DNA of 64,000 nt from Thermoanaerobaculia bacterium (lineage in GTDB: Bacteria; Acidobacteriota; Thermoanaerobaculia; Multivoradales; JAHZIX01), in assembly GCA_027069135.1 (NCBI GenBank), contig JALXFE010000102.1:1-64000 (forward strand), given 5' to 3'. This document shows, piece by piece, positions 2,550 through 27,458 of this stretch. The notes beneath the pieces are model-generated. The model was given only the letters and a program-made list of their open reading frames with translations, was not told the DNA's origin and did not search any database. The stretch's first letter is position 1, and every line of letters starts with the position of its first letter. Made by a program: the position numbers and the translations under genes.

Positions 2550-3542
2550 ATGGCAACGTGGAAGCTCGAGGCTCTCGAAGTAGAGCTTGAAAACAAAGTT
2601 TCTCCTCCTGGAGGGGGGGCTGCTGGCCCCTCTCGGTCTCGGCATCTCTTTGATCCCAAAGATGTGCTTGCCATCAATGCTTCTCTCGCTTCAGGTCGCC
2701 CGCTCCTGGTGCGCGGAGAGGCGGGAATTGGAAAAAGCCAGTTGGCTCGCGCAGCAGCAACAGGCCTCCGCCGCCGGTTCGTCTCGGCGGCGGTGGATGC
2801 CCGCACGGAAGCCCAGGACTTGCAGTGGACGTTTGATGCCGTGCGCCGCCTGGCGGACGCTCAGCTTCTGGGGTCGACCGGTGCGCGGCTGGATGAGTCT
2901 CAGAAATTGCTGGATGAAAAGCGCTACTTGAGCCCTGGTCCCCTTTGGTGGGGGTTCGATTGGGCAGGGGCAGCGCAGCAAGCGAAACAAGCGAAGACAA
3001 CCTTTCCGGTGGGCGCAGGAGACGCAGAGGCGGCTCCGCGAGGGGTCGTCGTCCTGCTGGATGAAATCGATAAGGGGGACAGCTCGGTGCCCAATGGGCT
3101 GCTGGAGGGTCTCGGGAACCGGCAGTTCACGAGCCCTACGGGGGACCTCGTTCGCTGTGATTCCGTGCCACCGCTGGTGGTCGTCACCACCAACGAAGAA
3201 CGTTCCTTGCCCGATGCCTTTCTGCGGCGCTGCCTGGTGCTTCAGATGGAGGTTCCCGGGAAGGAGGCCGGCCTCCTCAAGTGGCTGAAGAAACGAGGCC
3301 GCGCTCATTTTGGGCAGGAGGAACTAGCCGACGAGATCCTCTCCGAGGCCGCCAAAATGCTTGCTGTGGACCGGGCGGCGGCGCAGCGGAGAGGATTATC
3401 GCCACCAGGAGGTGCGGAATACTTGGATCTTCTCCGAGCACTCTTTTACCTGGGTGGCTCCACCCGCGAAAGAGAGACTCTCTTAGGGGAGATTCGTGAG
3501 TTCACCTTTCAAAAGCACCCGTCCGAGGATGTCGCGGGGTGA
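2550..3542 (+). CDS. MoxR-type AAA+ ATPase
   Basis: A 330-aa AAA+ protein. Walker A is GEAGIGKS at residues 56-63, Walker B is VVLLDEID around 167-174, and a sensor-1 segment VVVTTNEERSLPDAFLRRC follows. I chose ATG 2550 because AGGAGA precedes it at a good distance and it leaves no overlap with the protease; an in-frame start at 2508 would overlap that gene. MoxR ATPases usually work with a vWA-domain partner, and the next gene, overlapping by GTGA, carries a vWA-like region. Likely role: ATP-driven remodelling or priming of the protease/sensor complex (inference). Confidence 0.8.
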   Translation: MATWKLEALEVELENKVSPPGGGAAGPSRSRHLFDPKDVLAINASLASGRPLLVRGEAGIGKSQLARAAATGLRRRFVSAAVDARTEAQDLQWTFDAVRRLADAQLLGSTGARLDESQKLLDEKRYLSPGPLWWGFDWAGAAQQAKQAKTTFPVGAGDAEAAPRGVVVLLDEIDKGDSSVPNGLLEGLGNRQFTSPTGDLVRCDSVPPLVVVTTNEERSLPDAFLRRCLVLQMEVPGKEAGLLKWLKKRGRAHFGQEELADEILSEAAKMLAVDRAAAQRRGLSPPGGAEYLDLLRALFYLGGSTRERETLLGEIREFTFQKHPSEDVAG

Positions 3543-6500
3543 GAAGCTCCCCCCTCTCCGGGCCGCCTCGGGAGGCCGAGGCCTTGCCGGGATCCGCTCC
3601 GTGGCGAGGGGATCTCCTCCGCGCTTGGGTTTTTGGCGACCGGGCGGCCCTCGACGCAGCCGCCGAGCGGCATGGTTTTGGACGCCGGCTCCAGACAGAG
3701 CCTTCCGAGAAAGAGAGCCAGAAGAGCGACGAGATCCGAGACACCAAGACAACGAAGTGCCCGACGGATCTTGCGCGCCGCCGCCCGGCCCCTACGTTCT
3801 TCTGGCAGCCGGTGGCTCGAGATTTTGGCGATGATCACCTCGACGCGGACCCAGAGGATTCCGCGGAGAGACAGCTGCAGCTTAGCGAAGAACATCTCCG
3901 TCCCGGCCCCGACGACAGGGCTCCTCAGCCAGAACCCATCGTGGCCTGGCCGAGGCTTTGGCGAGCTCTGGAGGATCGGCTGAAGAGTCCGAAGCCTCGG
4001 CGTCTCGTCGATGTCGATCGGCTAGTTCGAAGATGGTCCCGGGGTGAGTTGGTGCGGCGCCTGCCGCTACGCTCCGGCCTAGCTCACGCTCGCCTGGCGA
4101 TATTCCTGGATCGCAGTGAGAGATTGAAACCCTTCTGGGGAGACCAAGTATCGGTCACCCGGAGGTTGGCAAGACACCTCGGCCGAGACTCCATCCGGCT
4201 ACTTCCGAGGAGTCTTCTTTCGCAGGGCATCCCGCCTCTTGCAGTCGATGAGAGGCTTCTCATCGTCAGCGACTTGGGACTCTATGGCGGTCCAGAGGCA
4301 TCTAGGCCTTGGGTTCGCCTGGGGCACCGGCTGCAGCGGAACCTAGGGCCGGCAGCGGTCGCTCTGCTGCCTTGTCCGAGGAACCGCTGGGTAGGAGACG
4401 GCCCCCAGCTTTTTTCCTCGCTGGATTGGTCGTCTCCGGACCGGGAAGGTTGCCCCCGGCCTGTCCGCGTCTCCGAGGGCGGGTCGGCGGTCGATCAGGT
4501 TTTGCGTCTGGCATCGGTCGCGCGGCGGCTCGAAACGGGTCTTGTGCGGGAACTGCGCTGCCTGGTTCCGGATGCAGACTTGGGCACGGAGGCGGATCTC
4601 TGGGCGCATCCGGCAGTCCGTTCTGCTCAAGCCATTGGCATTGTGCTCGAAGAAGATCGAGCCCGTTCCCTAAGGCTCGAGATGGCCGACCTACCCACCC
4701 TTGTCCAGGCCCGGGTGGTTTCTCTCTTGGCTCGTTGGCACAAGGGGATCGCTCCGGAGACCTGGGCCACCGAAGTGGCCGACTTGCTTGCCTTGGGGGT
4801 TTCGCAAGAGGTTATCGGTCAGGCGGAAATTGTCCGGTCCAAGGAACTGATGGGGCGCATCGCGAACCTGATTGAAGCCGGTGCAGGCCCTCTTTCGAAG
4901 GACGCTGATGCCTGGTTCGACCGCCTGAGCCTTTGGTGTTCCCGAAGCCTCTGGCGGCATAAAAACTACCGTGGGCTATTGTCCCGGGCTGTCGCTGCGC
5001 GCCAACGACGGAATCCAGAGAGCCCCCTACCTTCAGGGCTCACGCCAGAGATGCTCGGGGGTGAATCCTCGACCCTCCCGGTGCGCCGCTATTCGATCTG
5101 GCACGAAGGCCTCGAATTCAGAGCACTCGCCGCATCTCACAAAGGGTCTGGAAGTTTTGTGGCAGAGGTAGCGGCGCGCCTACCCCGCTTACTTTCCGAC
5201 AGCGGAGAAGAAGCTCCGATGGAAGTTGATCTAGGGAATTCCGAGCTCACATGGCCCGCCCCGGATCCCTCCGGCCCCGTCTTGCTTGTGACGGATGTCG
5301 AGGCGCTCGAGCTAGAACCCTCAGGAATGCCTCTGTGGGCTCGCTGGGCGGGGCGAGATCATTTTGGTTTCTGGGCCGCGTTCGAGGTGGTGGGCGTACG
5401 TCAGCGGCTCCGGTGGATTCCGCCGGGCCGGTTTTGGATGGGATCTCCTCAAGACGAAGCGGGCCGGTTTGAAAGGGAGGGTCCAAGGCACCAGGTCACG
5501 TTGACCGAGGGGTTTTGGATGGGTGAGACTCCCTGTACCCAAGCCCTCTGGGAGGCGGTGAGCACTACCAACCCGAGCCACTTCTCTGGTCCGGAGCATC
5601 CTGTCGAGAAGGTTTCTTGGGACGACTGTCAGACGTTTCTAACCAAGCTCAACGAACGGGTTCCTTTCCTCGAAGCAGAATTACCCACCGAGGCCCGGTG
5701 GGAATATGCCTGCCGGGCTGGGATCGCTGAGGCCACCTGGAAGGGTGATCTCGAGACGGAGGTGGAAAACACCTCAGCGATTTTGGATGAAATCGCTTGG
5801 TATCGAGGCAACAGTGCTGGGCTGGAAAAAGCCGGGCCAGACCGTAGCCTCTTCGCTTGGAGGAAGAGGCCGACTACGGAACCGCGCCGCGGAACCCACC
5901 CTGTTGGCCAGAAGGAACCGAATCCCTGGGGACTCCACGACATGTTGGGGAATGTGTATGAGTGGTGCTCGGACACCTACGGTCCCTACGGAGAGGAAAG
6001 AGCGGTGGATCCGGCGGCGGGTTCGAAGCGCGTGATTCGCGGCGGCTCCTGGAGCTCGTTCGCACGGCGCGTGCGTGCGGCGTACCGCTGCGGGGCCGAG
6101 CCGGGCTACCGCGACGACTACCTGGGCTTCCGCCTGGTCCGAGGTCCGGGGCGCGGAGCGCAGGAAATCGGTCGGGGCTCCGCGGCCGCGGAGGGAGGGA
6201 CGACCCCGCGCCGACGGAGACCACGACCGAGGCGATCTCGCATCGCTTGGGCTAGTGCCTCTGGTGAAGATGGAATCGGCCACTGGGCAGCGTTTGAGGT
6301 AGCAGGCGTCGAGCAGCGTTTGCGGTGGATTGAACCGGGAACGTTCTGGATGGGTTCCCAGGAGACCGAGGCCGGGCGGTGGGGGGACGAGGGCCCTCGC
6401 CATCGGGTTCGATTGACTCGAGGGTTCTGGCTGGGCGAGACCCCCTGTACCCAAGCCCTTTGGCAAGGCGTGATGGGTTCGAACCCAAGCCGCTTTAAGA

Positions 6501-7093
6501 GTCCGAACCGGCCGGTCGAGCGGGTGAGCTGGGAGGATTGTCAGGAGTTTCTGGCGAGGCTCGCTGAGAGCCATCCGCTCCTCAACCTTCGCCTCCCTAC
6601 CGAAGCGGAGTGGGAGTATGCCTGCCGGGCGAAAACGGAAAATGCTACCTGGATGGGGGACCTCAAGATTCTTGGGGAGAACAACGCGCCGTTGCTCGAT
6701 AAGATTGCTTGGTACGGGGGCAACAGCGGCGTGGGCTTCGACCTCGTCGAAGGGGCCGATTCTTCTGGATGGCCCGAGAAGCAGTATCCGCACGAGCGTG
6801 CAGGGACTCGCCCTGTCGGTCAGAAAGCCCCCAATCCGTGGGGACTCCGCGACATGTTGGGGAATGTGTTCGAGTGGTGCTCGGACTGGGTGGGGCCCTA
6901 TTCTGGAGAGCACGCCGAAGGCCCGAAGGGCCCGGAGTCGGGTTCGAGGCGCGTGATTCGCGGCGGCTCCTGGGACTCGGGCGCACAGAGCGTGCGTGCG
7001 GCGTGCCGCTTCGGGGACGAGCCGGGCGCCCGCGGCCACAACCTGGGCTTCCGCCTGGTCCGAGGTCCGGGAGGCGGAGCCGATGAGCGGTAG
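3539..7093 (+). CDS. vWA/SAV_2336-like protein with two FGE-sulfatase (C-type-lectin fold) domains carrying DGR variable repeats
   Basis: An 1184-aa protein starting at a GTG that overlaps the upstream stop (GTGA). Residues 150-600 resemble the SAV_2336 family: a vWA-like strand LAIFLDRSERL near 190 and LLIVSDLGLYGG near 241 suggest a degenerate metal-site domain, the expected partner of MoxR. Two FGE-sulfatase domains follow, at about 605-875 and 905-1180, each with RWIPPG/RWIEPG, FWMGS, ETPCTQALW, LPTEA-WEYACRA, NPWGL-DMLGNV-EWCSD and a closing RGGSW...LGFRLVRGPG. Each closing segment is a DGR variable repeat (VR1, VR2). The cysteine pair of catalytic formylglycine-generating enzymes is missing there, so both domains are probably ligand-binding lectin-like folds. 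Two variable domains in one chain would give a bivalent sensor. Confidence 0.82.
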   Translation: MRSSPLSGPPREAEALPGSAPWRGDLLRAWVFGDRAALDAAAERHGFGRRLQTEPSEKESQKSDEIRDTKTTKCPTDLARRRPAPTFFWQPVARDFGDDHLDADPEDSAERQLQLSEEHLRPGPDDRAPQPEPIVAWPRLWRALEDRLKSPKPRRLVDVDRLVRRWSRGELVRRLPLRSGLAHARLAIFLDRSERLKPFWGDQVSVTRRLARHLGRDSIRLLPRSLLSQGIPPLAVDERLLIVSDLGLYGGPEASRPWVRLGHRLQRNLGPAAVALLPCPRNRWVGDGPQLFSSLDWSSPDREGCPRPVRVSEGGSAVDQVLRLASVARRLETGLVRELRCLVPDADLGTEADLWAHPAVRSAQAIGIVLEEDRARSLRLEMADLPTLVQARVVSLLARWHKGIAPETWATEVADLLALGVSQEVIGQAEIVRSKELMGRIANLIEAGAGPLSKDADAWFDRLSLWCSRSLWRHKNYRGLLSRAVAARQRRNPESPLPSGLTPEMLGGESSTLPVRRYSIWHEGLEFRALAASHKGSGSFVAEVAARLPRLLSDSGEEAPMEVDLGNSELTWPAPDPSGPVLLVTDVEALELEPSGMPLWARWAGRDHFGFWAAFEVVGVRQRLRWIPPGRFWMGSPQDEAGRFEREGPRHQVTLTEGFWMGETPCTQALWEAVSTTNPSHFSGPEHPVEKVSWDDCQTFLTKLNERVPFLEAELPTEARWEYACRAGIAEATWKGDLETEVENTSAILDEIAWYRGNSAGLEKAGPDRSLFAWRKRPTTEPRRGTHPVGQKEPNPWGLHDMLGNVYEWCSDTYGPYGEERAVDPAAGSKRVIRGGSWSSFARRVRAAYRCGAEPGYRDDYLGFRLVRGPGRGAQEIGRGSAAAEGGTTPRRRRPRPRRSRIAWASASGEDGIGHWAAFEVAGVEQRLRWIEPGTFWMGSQETEAGRWGDEGPRHRVRLTRGFWLGETPCTQALWQGVMGSNPSRFKSPNRPVERVSWEDCQEFLARLAESHPLLNLRLPTEAEWEYACRAKTENATWMGDLKILGENNAPLLDKIAWYGGNSGVGFDLVEGADSSGWPEKQYPHERAGTRPVGQKAPNPWGLRDMLGNVFEWCSDWVGPYSGEHAEGPKGPESGSRRVIRGGSWDSGAQSVRAACRFGDEPGARGHNLGFRLVRGPGGGADER
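6020..6150 (+). repeat. DGR variable repeat VR1 (first FGE domain)
   Basis: 131 nt aligning without gaps to the template repeat 8703-8833. By hand I count about 13 differences at template adenines and one non-A difference, the G opposite template C at 8827 near the 3' end. Most hits fall on first and second bases of AAC codons, e.g. AAC to TTC, CGC, TGC, GCC and TAC. It encodes the last strand of the first FGE domain. Confidence 0.95.
6178..6193 (+). repeat. GC-rich perfect palindrome downstream of VR1
   Basis: CTCCGCGG followed by its reverse complement, 28 nt after VR1 and inside the coding linker between the two FGE domains. Related hairpin-forming sequences and a shared GGGAGGGACGACC block follow VR2 and VR3 but not the TR. 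In phage DGRs, GC-rich hairpins just after the VR promote target recognition; the same role is inferred here. Confidence 0.6.
6941..7071 (+). repeat. DGR variable repeat VR2 (second FGE domain)
   Basis: 131 nt matching the template repeat without gaps. About 13 differences sit at template adenines (AAG to AGG; AAC to GAC, GGC, AGC, TTC, GCC, CAC; TAC to TGC; GAC to GGC) and one non-A difference is the shared G at the 3' end. It encodes the last strand of the second FGE domain and ends 22 nt before the stop codon. Confidence 0.95.
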
Positions 7094-7104: not shown

Positions 7105-7126
7105 GGCTCCGCGAGCGAGGGGGAGG
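7105..7126 (+). repeat. GC-rich DGR flank element after VR2
   Basis: A block beginning GGCTCCGCG and running into GGGAGGGACGACC, 12 nt after the stop of the target gene. It corresponds to the elements after VR1 and VR3, although here the stem is imperfect. Probable target-recognition element (inference). Confidence 0.45.
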
Positions 7127-7186
7127 GACGACCCCGCGCCGCTGGAGCCTCGAGAGCTGTGTAGACTCGAGGGAAGAGACGAAGCG

Positions 7187-7684
7187 ATGCGACTGAAATT
7201 CTTCACGGTGCCCGTCTTCGGGCCTGGCGACTCGGAGACGGAACTCAACAGATTCTTGGCTCAGCACCGGATTCTGAAAGTGGACCGCGGACTGGTGACG
7301 GAGTCTTCCGGAGCTTGTTGGGCCGTATGCGTTGGTTATCTCGATAGTGAGATGAAACCAGCCTCCCGAAAGAGGAGTCGGATCGACTATCGAGAGGTGC
7401 TCTCGCCCACGGAGTTCGAGATCTATGCGGACCTTCGGAGGTGGCGCAAGGTGCAGGCGGCCGATGACGGTGTTCCTCCGTATCAAATCTTCACCAACGA
7501 ACAGCTGGCGGCTATCGTCCAGCAAGGAGTTCGGACCGTGGAGTCTTTGACCCTTCTCCCGGGGGTGGGGCCGGCTCGGTTGGCAAAATACGGTCAATCG
7601 GTTCTCGACCAGTTCAGTAGCCTCACGGCCGCTTTGGAAGAGAGCCTGGAAGGACACGATGAAACGGAAGCTGATTCCGCTTGA
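7187..7684 (+). CDS. HRDC-domain DGR accessory protein
   Basis: A 165-aa protein. The first 70 residues (KFFTVPVFGPGDSETELNRF, then a strand-rich stretch ending ACWAVCVGYLD) resemble the N-terminal piece often fused to HRDC in DGR accessory proteins. Residues 88-155 are an HRDC fold: LSPTEFEIYADLRRWRK, PPYQIFTNEQLAAI, LTLLPGVGPARLAKYG. HRDC domains bind nucleic acid, and some DGRs carry such a protein in place of the Avd barrel. It overlaps the RT start by 26 nt, so the two are translationally coupled. Likely role: binding TR RNA or RT during mutagenic cDNA synthesis. Confidence 0.85.
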   Translation: MRLKFFTVPVFGPGDSETELNRFLAQHRILKVDRGLVTESSGACWAVCVGYLDSEMKPASRKRSRIDYREVLSPTEFEIYADLRRWRKVQAADDGVPPYQIFTNEQLAAIVQQGVRTVESLTLLPGVGPARLAKYGQSVLDQFSSLTAALEESLEGHDETEADSA

Positions 7685-8666
7685 AAGCATCGCGGAGCGG
7701 GACCATTTGGCCTGGGCCTTCTGGCGTGCGGCCCAAGGGAAGCGTGGCCGGCCTGAGGTCCAGGCCTTTGCGAAGAATCTCGACGAGAACCTGGATCGCA
7801 TGCAGTCCGAGATTCTGTCTGGGACCGTTGGGGTGGGCCGCATGCACTCGTTTGAGATTCGAGATCCCAAACGCCGAGTGATCCACGCTCCTTGTTTCCG
7901 GGAGAGAGTCCTGCACCATGCACTGATGGCCTACCTGGGGCCGGTTTTCGAGCGTTCGTTGGTTGCGGACACCTTTGCCTGCCTTCCTGGAAGGGGAAGT
8001 TGGGCTGCTGTTTTGAGGGCGCAGCAGCACTCTCGATCCTATGGCTGGTTTCTCAAGATGGATATGCGTTCGTATTTCGCGTCAATCGACTAGAAGATAC
8101 TCTCCTCCCAGATTCGTCGCCGCCTCAAAGGAGAAGGTGTATTGGAGCTTTGCGACCGGGTCCTTTCTGCCTACTCGACATCCGCTGGGCGAGGACTTCC
8201 CATCGGAGCTCTGACCTCTCAGCACTTCGCAAACCTGTACCTGGCCCCTTTTGATCGCTACCTTCTGGAGGAACTCGAAGTCGGTGGACTGGTTCGCTAC
8301 ATGGATGATGTCGTGGTCTGGGGCGAGACGAGTCAGCGGCTCCGGGACGTCCTTCGGGCCTGCGAGGAATTCGTAGAGGAAGGTCTTCGCCTCGAGATCA
8401 AACCAAATTGGCAGATTCAGCGAACTTTCCGGGGGTTGACCCTCTGCGGATTCCGGGTTTTTTCCCGGAAGTTGGCGCTCTCTCAGCGCCGCCGGCGGCG
8501 TTATCGGCAGGCCCGGGTGAGCTGGGAAAGCGCTTACCTCTCTGGCGCCATTGATGCTCGGACTCTCCAGGAGGCCTACGCAGGGGTTCTCGCCATCACC
8601 ACTGGAGCGCAGTCCCTGGCCTGGCGTCGCGGCGAATTGGCACGCCGACCGGCAGTCGAGGTTTGA
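7659..8666 (+). pseudogene. DGR reverse transcriptase interrupted by one in-frame TAG (codon 145)
   Basis: A single frame of 336 codons with one internal stop, TAG 8091-8093. Before it: RT motifs including RDPKRRVIHAP and the motif-A segment FLKMDMRSYFASID (catalytic Asp135). After it, in the same frame: GLPIGALTSQHFANLYLAPFD, which carries the SQ signature specific to DGR-type RTs, and RYMDD with the two catalytic Asp (216-217), then a thumb region. No frameshift is present and both halves are well conserved. A CAG-to-TAG change would explain it. It is either a recent nonsense mutation, a sequence error, or a stop that is read through. A TTG at 8142 could start a second fragment but would lack motif A. 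Confidence 0.88.
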
Positions 8667-8702: not shown

Positions 8703-8833
8703 GGTTCGAAGCGCGTGATTCGCGGCGGCTCCTGGAACTCGAACGCACAGAACGTGCGTGCGGCGTACCGCAACGGGAACGAGCCGGGCAACCGCGACAA
8801 CAACCTGGGCTTCCGCCTGGTCCGAGCTCCGGG
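8703..8833 (+). repeat. DGR template repeat (TR)
   Basis: 131-nt non-coding template 36 nt after the RT stop. It is the common ancestor-like copy of VR1, VR2 and VR3. It contains eight AAC codons in the VR frame, the usual design that allows wide amino-acid change without stop codons. Read in that frame it spells RGGSWNSNAQNVRAAYR and so on to GFRLVRAPG. The C at 8827, where all VRs have G, marks the IMH*/IMH difference that protects the template from being overwritten. The flank 8834-8973 contains no gene I can support. Confidence 0.95.
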
Positions 8834-8973: not shown

Positions 8974-9891
8974 ATGAGCCGCCAAGCAAAACCCTCCAGT
9001 CACGGCGAAACCTACTGGCATCCACTCGTCAACCTCAACCCCCCCGCTTGGGCTTGCGCTTGGGGGGAAGATCCCTGGGGCGTGTTTGCGACCTTTCTGG
9101 TCGGCGATGTCGAGCAAGAAATGCGATGGATCCCGGCGGGAACCTTTTGGATGGGCTCTCCTCCAGGAGAGGCGGGGAGGGACGCAAACGAAGATCGGCA
9201 CCTGGTGACCCTGACGAAGGGGTTTTGGATGGCACAGACGCCTTGTACCCAAGATCTTTGGCTGGAGGTCATGGGCCAAAACCCGAGTAGGTTTGTTTCC
9301 GGGCGTCGCCCCGTAGAGACCGTGAGTTGGGAGGATTGCCAGGGTTTCCTCGAACGTCTCAGCGAGCGTTGCCCAGGCCTCGAACCTCGGCTGCCGACCG
9401 AGGCGCAATGGGAGCACGCTTGCCGGGCAGGCGTCGATTCGGCCACCTGGCCGGGAGACCTCAAAATCCTTGGAGTCCGCGATGCTCCCCTCTTGGACCC
9501 GATTGCCTGGTACGGTGGAAACAGTGGCGAGGGTTTTGATCTTGAGAAAGGTTGGGATTCTTCTAGTTGGCCTGAGAAGCAGTATTCCCATAAGAAGACC
9601 GGGACTCGGCTGGTGGCTCTCAAGGAGCCGAATCCGTGGGGTCTTCTTGACATCCTGGGAAATGTCTACGAGTGGTGCTCGGACTGGAAGGGGCCCTATC
9701 CTGCAGAGCACGTCGAAGACCCGAAGGGCCCGGATTCGGGTTCGTTGCGCGTGTTTCGCGGCGGCTCCTGGAACTCGAACGCACAGGACGTGCGTGCGGC
9801 GTGCCGCGACGGGCACGGGCCGGGCGTCCGCGGCAGTTACCTGGGCTTCCGCCTGGTCCGAGGTCCGGGAAGCGCAGCCCAGGAGCGGTAG
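8974..9891 (+). CDS. Stand-alone FGE-sulfatase (C-type-lectin fold) protein, second DGR target
   Basis: A 305-aa protein made almost entirely of one FGE domain: MRWIPAGTFWMGSP, QTPCTQDLWLEVMG, LPTEAQWEHACRAG, NPWGLLDILGNVYEWCSDW and the closing variable repeat. No signal peptide is visible. It is closely similar to the two FGE domains of the vWA fusion protein. The catalytic cysteine segment of formylglycine-generating enzymes is absent, so a binding rather than an enzymatic role is expected. It lies just behind the TR, the usual place for a DGR target. It probably supplies an extra diversified recognition subunit. No clear Shine-Dalgarno precedes ATG 8974, so the start is less certain than the frame. 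Confidence 0.85.
   Translation: MSRQAKPSSHGETYWHPLVNLNPPAWACAWGEDPWGVFATFLVGDVEQEMRWIPAGTFWMGSPPGEAGRDANEDRHLVTLTKGFWMAQTPCTQDLWLEVMGQNPSRFVSGRRPVETVSWEDCQGFLERLSERCPGLEPRLPTEAQWEHACRAGVDSATWPGDLKILGVRDAPLLDPIAWYGGNSGEGFDLEKGWDSSSWPEKQYSHKKTGTRLVALKEPNPWGLLDILGNVYEWCSDWKGPYPAEHVEDPKGPDSGSLRVFRGGSWNSNAQDVRAACRDGHGPGVRGSYLGFRLVRGPGSAAQER
9739..9869 (+). repeat. DGR variable repeat VR3
   Basis: 131 nt matching the template repeat without gaps. About 12 differences fall at template adenines (e.g. AAG to TTG, ATT to TTT, AAC to GTC, CAC and TAC). Two do not: a C-to-T in an AGT codon and the shared 3' G. The repeat ends 19 nt before the stop codon. Confidence 0.94.
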
Positions 9892-9905
9892 CGACAAGAG
9901 AGAGG

Positions 9906-9925
9906 CTCCGCGTTCGCGAGGGGAG
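9906..9925 (+). repeat. GC-rich hairpin after VR3
   Basis: CTCC and GCG pair with CGC and GGAG around a TT loop, with bulges, followed by the same GGGAGGGACG block seen after VR1 and VR2. Likely DGR target-recognition structure by analogy with phage DGRs. Confidence 0.5.
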
Positions 9926-10026
9926 GGACGACCGCGCGTCGCTGGTGTTGGCAACGTTCGGAAACTGACCCACCCCCGGCCGAGTTTCAGTGTAATCGAG
10001 AGTCGGTCTTTTCTCCTTTCTTAGGT

Positions 10027-23711: not shown

Positions 23712-25499
23712 CTATTTGTCGATGCGTACGAGTTGCATCATGCCGAGATCCTCGTGGTGGAGGATGTGGCAGTGGAGCACGAAGGTGCCGTCGAAGCGTT
23801 CGTAACGGGTGCGGATGGTGATCTCGTCGCCGGGCTTTTGGTACCGCGGGACGATGATTGTGTCTCGCCATTCGGCGGGTACACCGTTTCGGATCACTTG
23901 GAACGCATTGACGTGGATGTGGAAGGGATGGACTCCCCCGCTGAGGCTCTTGAGCGTCCATTCTTCGGTGTCTCCGAGCTTCAGCTGAAAATCTTCGTGG
24001 ATCCGGGAGTGGTCGAACTCCCTCCCGTTGATCTCGAATTTTCCGTTGACGATGCCAAAGCTCACTTCTCGGGGTTTTCCGGTGACCTCCTCGAGATCCG
24101 GGAGAGGAGATTTCAGGGAGCCCGGCGGTAGAAGTTTGCGTACCCGGATCGATTTGCAGGCCGCCGAGCCTGGGTCTTGGAGCTCGATTTCTGCGAGGAC
24201 CTGCCGGTCGCCGGGCTGGTCCATGCCAGCGAAGACGATATCCGAGCCGGTTTTTCGTAGTACGGCTTTGAAGCCCGGTGCCAGGGAATCCGGGGCTTTG
24301 ACCAGGAGGTCGACCCGGTAGCCGGGGCCCATCTTGCGGGGACCTCTCATGGGTAAGGGTCCGTTCATGGTGATGCCGTCGGTGGCGATGATCTGGGCTT
24401 CTATCTGTCCGGCCCGACGATTTCCGTTCATGATGGCCAGCTCGACGGGGACCATCTCGAAGATCCCTCCGTCGATGAGCCTCCAGCGCTGCACCTCACC
24501 GGGGCACATGGGGACCCGCGGTTTGTAGACGCCGTTGATGGTCGTGTAGCGGCCCAGCTGCCAATTTCTGCGCAGCTGGTTGACGTTCTCGATGTCGACC
24601 AGCCCCCGGTCGTCGAAGGCGAGCTGCTGGGTGACCATCACCCGCTCCCGGATGCCTTGAATCAAGGGAATCTCGTTCGGATCCTCGACGATCAGCGCCC
24701 CCGCCATGCCGCTGGCCAGTTGGGCCGCTGTCGAGCCGTGGTGGTGGGCGTGGTACCAGAAGGTTCCGGGATAGTGGACTCCCGGTTCTATCCCCGGATC
24801 CCGGGCCGGGAGGATCTTGAACTCGTGCTCAAAGCTGCCGGCGTAGCAGCCCTCTTTGGCGGCGCAAAGCCGGGCCCGCTCACCGCTGTCCCGACGGGGG
24901 GCGACGGAGACGAGGACGTTGTCACTCTTGTCCTTGGGCGAAATATGCAGACCGTGAGTGTGGAGGTTGGTGTAGTCGAAACATTGGGGCGGATTGTGGG
25001 AGTTCGGGTCGCAAACGCCGCGGTTGGGGGGAAGCTCGTTGTTGAGATGGACCTTGACGACGTCCCCGGCCTTGATCCGCAAGGTCGGCCCTACGAGGCC
25101 GTTTCTCCGGCCGACCGCTTGGGGGCTCGAATAGGAACGCAGATTCACCCGCCGGCAGCCTCCGGGGATACGCACGCAGGGAGCGGGGCCGCAGCGGCCG
25201 TGGGTCACGGTACAGGATCCTGGTTGAAAGTTGGGGTTGTTCATCACGACGTTGAGAGCGATCGGGTCCGAACCCGGGCGGATCACCGGAGGCTCGAACC
25301 AAGCACTGGCGGGCTCGGCCAAATCCGCGAAGATTTCGTTATCAGCGGCGGCGGTGTCGACGTCGCCGTCGGACGTGGCGGACGGGGCTGGGGTACAGCC
25401 CCAAGATCCGGCGGCCAGAGCGAGGCCGGCGGCGAGGTGCCACCAGCCCTTCTTGGGCGCACTGTAGCCCGGCGGGGAATTTCGGGTTCTTCTGTTCAT
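23712..25499 (-). CDS. Periplasmic multicopper oxidase (probable lipoprotein)
   Basis: A 595-aa three-cupredoxin protein. All four copper motifs are present: HTHGLH, FWYHAHHHG, HPFHIHVNAF and HCHILHHEDLGMM. The first 35 residues form a signal sequence ending GSWGC, an acceptable but not ideal lipobox. I chose the ATG at 25499 because the frame upstream of it is unstructured. It lies 71 nt downstream of the tyrosinase on the same strand and may be cotranscribed. Family members oxidise phenols, Cu(I) or metal ions with O2. Together with the tyrosinase it suggests oxidative phenol chemistry. Confidence 0.9.
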   Translation of the reverse strand: MNRRTRNSPPGYSAPKKGWWHLAAGLALAAGSWGCTPAPSATSDGDVDTAAADNEIFADLAEPASAWFEPPVIRPGSDPIALNVVMNNPNFQPGSCTVTHGRCGPAPCVRIPGGCRRVNLRSYSSPQAVGRRNGLVGPTLRIKAGDVVKVHLNNELPPNRGVCDPNSHNPPQCFDYTNLHTHGLHISPKDKSDNVLVSVAPRRDSGERARLCAAKEGCYAGSFEHEFKILPARDPGIEPGVHYPGTFWYHAHHHGSTAAQLASGMAGALIVEDPNEIPLIQGIRERVMVTQQLAFDDRGLVDIENVNQLRRNWQLGRYTTINGVYKPRVPMCPGEVQRWRLIDGGIFEMVPVELAIMNGNRRAGQIEAQIIATDGITMNGPLPMRGPRKMGPGYRVDLLVKAPDSLAPGFKAVLRKTGSDIVFAGMDQPGDRQVLAEIELQDPGSAACKSIRVRKLLPPGSLKSPLPDLEEVTGKPREVSFGIVNGKFEINGREFDHSRIHEDFQLKLGDTEEWTLKSLSGGVHPFHIHVNAFQVIRNGVPAEWRDTIIVPRYQKPGDEITIRTRYERFDGTFVLHCHILHHEDLGMMQLVRIDK

Positions 25500-25570
25500 G
25501 GTAGATCTCCTAGTGGCTGATTCTTGAGTAGAGATGGAAAGACGGGCGGCTCCCTCGGTGGAGGGAGCCA

Positions 25571-27268
25571 CTAGGGGTAGACGAGCTCGATGCGGGAGAA
25601 CTCGATGGCGGCTTTCTCCGGGTGCGGCCCCCGGGGAACGAAGGTGATCTCGATGGGCTGGCGCCAAGTCCCGGCGAGCTTCTGAGCGATGACCTTGTCG
25701 GTGATACCGGTGAGGTAGCGCAGGCCGTGGCCCCCGTGCCCCCCGTGCCCCCCGTGGCCACCGGTGAGCCCGAAAAAGGTCAGCGCGCCGACGTAGTGAT
25801 CCGCCGCCGTCTTCCACAGCTGGGCGTCCCCGAGGCGGGTCTCCTGCGGCAGATTGAGGAAAATATCGTAGGAGCCCATGGGCGGTCCTTCCCCGGTGGC
25901 GCGGATCCCCTCGATGCGGAGGAGGATCTCTCCGTAGCTCGGTTCGTCATCGACGACGGCAGCGAGGGCTGAGAGGAGCCGTCGGTTCGCCGCAGAGTCG
26001 ATCTCGAGGGAGAACCGGCGGGCCTGGTTGGCGAGCTCCTGGGTTTTCATTTCGCCTAATGCGGCGATTCGTGTCACCGGCAGTGCGGGAACGGCGGAGG
26101 CGCCCCCGGTTCGGGGCTCGTCTTGCCGCGGTTCGTCGTCGTAGACATACCCGAGGCCCCTTCCGGTCGGTGCGAAGCTCGCTGCGATGAGGGCTCTGGG
26201 GGACATTTCGACTTTGCGATAGCCCCCTCCGGCGGCGGCGTCAAAGAAGGTAAAGACGTCTTTCCTATCGCTGCAGGTTCGGAGATCTTCGGCGCCCCGC
26301 AGGCAGCACATTTGCTGGAGATACGGTCGGTCGTCCCAGGGTGCGCCGCAAGCTCGGGTCTCCCTCCCCCAGGCGAGAGCGAGGGCCTCGTCGACGGATG
26401 GATTGCGATGGCCGGGCCGCCGTAGCCATTGGTTCCAGAGGCGGTCAATATTCGTGTGGTGGAGCCAGAAGACGGTGTCCCGGCCGGCGGTGGCGATGCT
26501 GGCCATGAAGCCGCATTCGCGATCGTTGCAGGCGAAGGCCGGGTTTGGCGGGCACTCCCCGTCGACGTATCCACCGAGGGAGACGTGCATCTGGTTGTGG
26601 GGGTGGCTCTCGACCCGGCTCGAAAACGTCACCCAACTGGGCGTTTCGAGGGCGTCCCGAAAGCTCGCGGCGTGGCGATCGACAGGTTCGGCCGCGTTGA
26701 CCCGTCTGAGAAAGTAGTCCCGACCGCTGAGCCAGCAGCGCACATTGCTGCGTTGTCGGAGGAAGAAAGGATTGTTCGATGGAGGTTCCCGCAGGAAGGC
26801 GGGCAGCTGCCGGGGCGGTTCCTCATCGTGGGAGTAGTCCCAGTAGGGGAGCGTGAAGCGGCCATCTCCCGAGGCTTGCCGCAGAAGGCGTTCCATGTAG
26901 AAAACGTACAGCCTATGCCAGGAGAGAAACATCAGGTCGCCGTGTGGGCAGACGGCCCAGGTCAGCTCCGCGTCCGGCGGGTAGGTGCCGCGGTCGCCGG
27001 GGTCCTCCACGCAGCCCGGCAAGCGGACTCCACCGTGGGTGCAGGACGGGACGTGGTGGACGTTGGCCTGGTACAGCCAACTCGCCGGGTTCATGAGGCC
27101 GCGGCTCTTGAGCACGGCTACGGCCCGGCCAAAGTTACGGATCTGTGGTCGGGTAAGCCTCTCGACGCTGACCCGCTCGAAGGGTTGGGCTTGGGCCGGA
27201 AACCCGGGGCCGAGGGCGAGGACGGTGAGAAGGGCTGCCGCACAGAGGTGGCGTAGAGCTCGATACAT
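25571..27268 (-). CDS. Secreted tyrosinase/polyphenol oxidase
   Basis: A 565-aa binuclear copper enzyme. The signal peptide (LCAAALLTVLALGPGFPAQA) is cleaved near residue 26. CuA site: ANVHH, then CPHGDLMFLSWHRLYVFYM; CuB site: HPHNQMHVSLGGYV and FWLHHTNIDRLW. The C-terminal part from about 430 resembles the beta domain that follows plant and bacterial catechol oxidases (SYDIFLNLP near its middle). That domain contains a (Gly-Gly-His)4 insertion. AAGGAG precedes ATG 27268. It converts phenols to quinones in the periplasm or outside; a MITE sits just upstream of its start. Confidence 0.92.
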   Translation of the reverse strand: MYRALRHLCAAALLTVLALGPGFPAQAQPFERVSVERLTRPQIRNFGRAVAVLKSRGLMNPASWLYQANVHHVPSCTHGGVRLPGCVEDPGDRGTYPPDAELTWAVCPHGDLMFLSWHRLYVFYMERLLRQASGDGRFTLPYWDYSHDEEPPRQLPAFLREPPSNNPFFLRQRSNVRCWLSGRDYFLRRVNAAEPVDRHAASFRDALETPSWVTFSSRVESHPHNQMHVSLGGYVDGECPPNPAFACNDRECGFMASIATAGRDTVFWLHHTNIDRLWNQWLRRPGHRNPSVDEALALAWGRETRACGAPWDDRPYLQQMCCLRGAEDLRTCSDRKDVFTFFDAAAGGGYRKVEMSPRALIAASFAPTGRGLGYVYDDEPRQDEPRTGGASAVPALPVTRIAALGEMKTQELANQARRFSLEIDSAANRRLLSALAAVVDDEPSYGEILLRIEGIRATGEGPPMGSYDIFLNLPQETRLGDAQLWKTAADHYVGALTFFGLTGGHGGHGGHGGHGLRYLTGITDKVIAQKLAGTWRQPIEITFVPRGPHPEKAAIEFSRIELVYP

Positions 27269-27293
27269 GACGTCTCCTTTTTCTATTGCTGTT

Positions 27294-27458
27294 CTAGTGT
27301 CCCGATTGACAAATTCATCGTATAAATACACGGCCCTTTCGGGCTCTAGCTGCGTTGTTCCTTCGCGCAATAGCTCTGCTATTGCTTGTCGTCACGCCTT
27401 ACCAGAGTCCCGAAATGCCTCGCGATTTCTCACGCGAATTAGCCAATCGGGACACTAG
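27294..27458. mobile_element. MITE-like palindromic element with perfect 15-bp termini
   Basis: 165 bp starting CTAGTGTCCCGATTG and ending with the exact reverse complement. Inside are a second pair (TTTCGGGCTCT-like with AGAGTCCCGAAA) and a central GCAATAG/CTATTGC hairpin, so a single strand folds into one long stem. No transposase is coded. It lies 26 nt upstream of the tyrosinase start codon, where it could carry or alter the promoter. Between it and the permease at 27613 nothing was seen. Confidence 0.75.

Follow-up and report, generated by a model that had tools for sequence, protein, structure and literature searches.

A DGR whose single template matches three variable repeats, two of them in tandem FGE/CLec domains of one protein, in a Thermoanaerobaculia bacterium

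The window that we analysed, a 64,000-nucleotide stretch of a Thermoanaerobaculia bacterium contig, contains a DGR within a run of genes that all lie on the plus strand. The first of these encodes a Trypco2 (trypsin-co-occurring domain 2) protein (666-977; PF19631, E 5.4e-19), followed by a trypsin-like peptidase that is the likely effector (988-2538; PF13365, Trypsin_2, E 1.2e-4, which is below the gathering score) and a MoxR-type AAA ATPase (2550-3542; PF07728, AAA_5, E 5.7e-9, together with a bpMoxR match at E 3.4e-4 that is below the cut-off). The ATPase gene adjoins the gene for target protein 1 (3539-7093), and the GTG start codon of the latter shares GTGA with the stop codon of the former. 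Downstream are the genes for an HRDC-domain accessory protein (7187-7684; PF00570, E 6.7e-15) and the DGR reverse transcriptase (RT; 7659-8666), then the noncoding template repeat (TR; 8703-8831) on the 3' side of the RT gene, and finally target protein 2 (8974-9891), a protein of 305 aa with a single FGE domain (PF03781, E 1.7e-38). The peptidase part of 988-2538 also matches the PADLOC LmuA model (Lamassu) with an E value of 2.7e-8. Farther along the window, at 23712-27370 on the minus strand, there are genes that resemble multicopper oxidase and tyrosinase, as judged from their translations only.

Target protein 1 (1184 aa) consists of an N-terminal region (3539-5340) and two FGE/CLec domains, which Pfam detects as two stretches of PF03781 (E 1.2e-84): FGE domain 1 at 5414-6142 (residues 626-868) and FGE domain 2 at 6317-7066. 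Each variable repeat (VR) closes an FGE/CLec-fold domain, VR1 at 6020-6143 with an IMH side that reaches about 6151, VR2 at 6941-7064 with an IMH side that reaches about 7071, and VR3 at 9739-9862 in target 2. The sequence-only reading had placed two FGE domains, each closed by its own VR, at 5350-7093 in the 1184-aa protein; the span is correct, and Pfam and the ungapped TR comparison described below both bear out the architecture. The N-terminal region is possibly a degenerate vWA domain with the motif DRSER, and D191, S193 and D245, including a D-x-S motif, fall in conserved alignment columns. When vWA was sought there, Pfam gave no match even at an E value of 5, and Foldseek with the full-chain model of target 1 gave no significant match beyond the FGE part. 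The full-chain model has a mean pLDDT of 48.5 and is too poor to indicate the orientation of the domains or the direction of the variable faces. The closest solved variable protein to FGE2 is TvpA (2y3c), both by sequence (E 8e-26) and by fold, where it is the best Foldseek match (E 6e-17; mean pLDDT of the FGE2 model 71.7). TvpA carries a single variable domain, unlike target 1, and to our knowledge it does not belong to an operon such as the one found here.

The three VRs were compared without gaps with the TR at 8703-8831, whose 124-nt core (8703-8826) contains 25 adenines and 99 other sites. Thirteen of the 25 adenines are changed in each VR. None of the other core sites is altered in VR1 or VR2 and one is altered in VR3, so that TR adenines account for 13/13, 13/13 and 13/14 of the core mismatches in VR1, VR2 and VR3, respectively (hypergeometric P 4e-11 for VR1 and VR2 each). 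All of the A-site changes in VR1 and VR2 are nonsynonymous. Immediately beyond the core, C8827 of the TR is a G in all three VRs and is the sole non-A difference of VR1 and VR2 over 8703-8831; it would represent an IMH*/IMH-type difference at the 3' end, as expected of such a pair. Because the noncoding TR matches all VRs outside the adenines, except at the IMH site and the one VR3 site, homing was recent. VR1 and VR2 differ from each other at 15 of the 25 A sites, and at the eight sites where both have been altered, five carry different bases and three are identical. The proposal of independent substitutions at nearly every shared site therefore stands with regard to independence and overstates the proportion. 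The larger claim, that one template has fed two VRs in tandem domains of the same chain, is supported by the restriction of changes to adenines and by the agreement of VR1, VR2 and TR at 99/99 non-A core sites. A further candidate VR of this TR, at C588:52905-53034 in G000 (L005, L159), was rejected: only 10 of its 36 mismatches fall at adenines, and this lack of adenine bias marks it as an old unlinked FGE paralog with an end that is 72% TR-like.

The RT has the motifs IGALTSQ and YMDD, which fit the DGR-clade patterns (I/V/L)GxxxSQ and YxDD, and its best solved relative is the reverse transcriptase 8ub7 (E 9.4e-40). Its frame is interrupted by an in-frame TAG at 8091-8093, which the sequence-only reading had overlooked, and is otherwise open, and a full-length RT is not predicted under the standard code. 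Present activity of the DGR in this strain is therefore doubtful. We consider the chances about even that the DGR is now dead, with a nonsense mutation that cuts the RT after motif A and with VR1 to VR3 as the frozen record of earlier homing. The TAG replaces codon 145, a near-invariant position that is His in 10/10 aligned relatives, and there was no in-frame stop among the RT relatives found at the strict cut-off. Conversion of a His codon to TAG takes two base changes, which makes a single simple sequencing error less likely. No second related RT was matched elsewhere in the genome, and other published DGRs have recently acquired nonsense mutations in the RT while keeping their TR/VR pairs intact (PMC3521204). 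Set against inactivity, the remainder of the RT is intact, with only two of 64 otherwise invariant positions differing, one of them being the TAG itself; there is almost no non-A decay in the TR and VRs, so any loss would have to be very recent; and the genome is in 626 contigs, which makes an assembly error possible. Since the RT is otherwise conserved and the TR/VR pairs are undecayed, the TAG would either be read through or stem from an assembly error or from a loss of very recent date. The only tRNA gene in the window is a tRNA-Ser. One 9-Mb genome (L012, G403) contains six separate matches to this RT.

Relatives of the RT were gathered from named genomes, viral contigs and species genomes, and their loci were scanned for A-biased repeats. 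Two VRs in one ORF were found in 5/89 loci having a TR/VR pair, in at least three phyla, with ORFs assigned as the longest open frame, a procedure that may err in GC-rich DNA. A search for other targets with two VRs in a single ORF had been suggested, and four loci are thus added to that of the window: a Chromatiaceae MAG (L008, ORF of 1200 aa), a Magnetospira MAG (L011, 1182 aa), a Verrucomicrobiia MAG of the Verrucomicrobiota (L014, 1252 aa), and a second Verrucomicrobiota locus that came from a search of the phylum of L014 (L139, 1451 aa). Two Pfam FGE stretches were confirmed in the two-VR ORFs of L008, L011 and L014. All four resemble the window in having two A-diversified VRs per ORF with an HRDC gene and RT downstream, and differ from it in that their RTs have no stop codon. 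An HRDC gene is present in all five two-VR loci, that is, 5/41 loci with HRDC against 0/48 without (Fisher p 0.018), in a census whose 89 loci are not phylogenetically independent. A third, solo target is also present in L008 and L011, and in five further loci (L009, L123, L126, L136 and L142) the VRs are split between a large and a small ORF, with one in each. In L138 and L147, one TR serves three single-VR target genes in the same locus.

The coding linker between the two domains of target 1 provides a clue to the origin of the tandem. Its segment 6176-6226 aligns with the DNA past the VR2 stop codon (score 64, shuffle maximum 44-47) and with the DNA past the VR3 stop codon (score 52, shuffle maximum 34-39), which identifies the linker as a former target-gene 3' flank that was part of the duplicated unit. 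Linker homology of the same kind was found in L011 and L139 and was sought and absent in L008 and L014. In a tree built from FGE domains minus the VR part, FGE2 of the window groups with the FGE domain of the solo target (98/87) and not with FGE1; a clade of FGE1 plus FGE2 is not rejected (p 0.33). AU tests, each of which sets only two trees against each other, reject cross-locus orthology among the window, L008 and L011 for the first domains (p 5e-8) and for the second domains (p 4e-5). The tandem domains at these three loci are thus not orthologous by position, and this rejection points either to separate duplications or to turnover through gene conversion at a later time. On these trees, separate origins of the tandem domains in the window, L008 and L011 are favoured; gene conversion could give the same tree. 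The earlier arrangement was likely a single FGE domain in each ORF together with a solo FGE target, as in the five loci with one large and one small target ORF. A complete homing target, comprising FGE domain, VR, IMH and 3' flank, would have been duplicated beside another target, and loss of the stop codon between the adjoining targets would have turned the former 3' flank into a coding linker.

It is very improbable that the fusion is instead an assembly artefact, in which each domain has its own gene and error or misassembly removed the stop codon between them. The derivation of the linker from the 3' flank of a gene might invite that suspicion, and the same doubt was voiced for Marichromatium by the authors in 2012 (PMC3521204), but the same two-VR ORF occurs in four other loci, the linker is open in frame over about 55 codons, and around the position of the former stop several bases have changed and a deletion is present, not a change of one base. 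Domain duplication alone, with no later homing, is the least credible explanation for the likeness of VR1 and VR2: although FGE1 and FGE2 are homologues with 61% amino acid identity, the DNA just upstream of VR1 and VR2 is only 66% identical, against 99/99 non-A sites in the VR core, and mismatches are confined to the adenines of a noncoding TR that is otherwise identical to both, a pattern that plain duplication cannot yield. The low upstream identity indicates that both VRs were recently rewritten by the DGR and were not copied from each other; a closer likeness of VR1 to VR2 than to the TR outside the adenines, which was named beforehand as a sign of simple duplication, was looked for and is absent, all three being identical there. 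The locus is very probably an HRDC-type DGR in a MoxR/trypsin/Trypco2 conflict-type operon, with one TR for three FGE/CLec domains and a tandem that arose through a duplicated target and loss of a stop.

A short element containing GGGAC or GAGGGACGA follows each VR of the window at a distance of 45-60 nt (6190-6211, 7118-7139 and 9918-9939). The element after VR2 (7105-7153, plus strand) includes a clean hairpin, GGGG-GAGGGACGA-CCCC, at 7119-7135, and the element after VR3 (9904-9941, plus strand) contains GAGGGACGA. The linker after VR1 contains GAGGGACGA and keeps the GGGACGA element that is found after the VRs of other HRDC-type loci, with an imperfect stem. The GGGAC/GAGGGACGA element, often as a hairpin, also follows VRs of L007, L008, L124, L127, L136, L139 and L142, and in some loci it falls within coding DNA. 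In the genome set, GGGAC lies 20-90 nt 3' of 28/67 VRs against 3/46 TRs (Fisher p 2.8e-5), a p value that, like others for this motif, is optimistic because the motif was defined after some of these loci had been viewed and because the loci are related. Ten VRs and no TRs are followed by a loop of GGGAC or GAGGGACGA on a stem of at least 4 bp, where shuffles expect 0.4%. Folding is better for VRs located at the ends of ORFs than for TR flanks (p 0.0007), whereas for the five internal VRs the strength of the following hairpin was not above that of shuffles (mean z 0.19). The idea that each stop codon is framed by a perfect inverted repeat was also considered and was rejected as inconsistent across loci. 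In BPP-1, a hairpin after the VR is required (PMC3240598). We tentatively suggest, with somewhat less than even confidence, that the GGGAC/GAGGGACGA hairpin may be the target-recognition element of HRDC-type DGRs, a counterpart of the BPP-1 GRNA, and that the complete homing target may be the duplicating unit; retention of the recognition element inside the coding linker would then keep the internal VR rewritable.

The sequence-only reading had noted that most described DGR targets have one VR per protein; novelty of the two-VR target is not sustained by the literature. For MarpuDRAFT_1558 of Marichromatium purpuratum 984, an ORF made up of three tandem FGE paralogs with three VRs was described in 2012 (PMC3521204), more than one VR per ORF was reported in 2019 for 31 of 948 DGRs (PMC6642488), and tandem CLec sensors were reported in Thiohalocapsa in 2024 (PMC10907252). 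As far as the descriptions can be compared, Marichromatium resembles the window in that tandem FGE-sulfatase paralogs within a single ORF carry several VRs of one TR; it differs in having three domains, whereas the window has two, with the third VR in a separate gene, and an RT with an in-frame stop. DGR 4 and DGR 5 of Thiohalocapsa PB-PSB1 likewise have tandem VR-bearing CLec domains in the target of a MoxR/trypsin-type ternary system; there the authors name a vWA and three CLec domains, whereas in the window the vWA is only putative. VR diversity has been shown in natural populations of Thiohalocapsa PB-PSB1 (PMC10907252). The DGR of Treponema denticola TvpA shares with the window an HRDC accessory gene (PMC4891356). 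What we add beyond this literature is modest, namely the linker of the fused unit and the post-VR element.

The Trypco2 protein, the trypsin-like protein and the MoxR-type ATPase fit the ternary conflict systems described previously (PMC7159879) and agree with the sensor model put forward in PMC10907252. VMAP-C was not detected on the peptidase protein, where Pfam gives only Trypsin_2 and a divergent domain could escape detection; since neither vWA nor VMAP-C was found, we describe the locus as ternary-like and refrain from classing it among VMAP systems. Target 1 would be a sensor with two sites, relaying its signal to the peptidase by way of the ATPase. Each of its VRs could encode about 10^13.5 amino-acid combinations, and the window represents an independent case of two hypervariable sites per chain, outside the lineages in which multi-VR ORFs were named. 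The linker shows a route by which such proteins may arise, the fusion of complete target units, and the post-VR element provides a concrete candidate for target recognition by HRDC-type DGRs.
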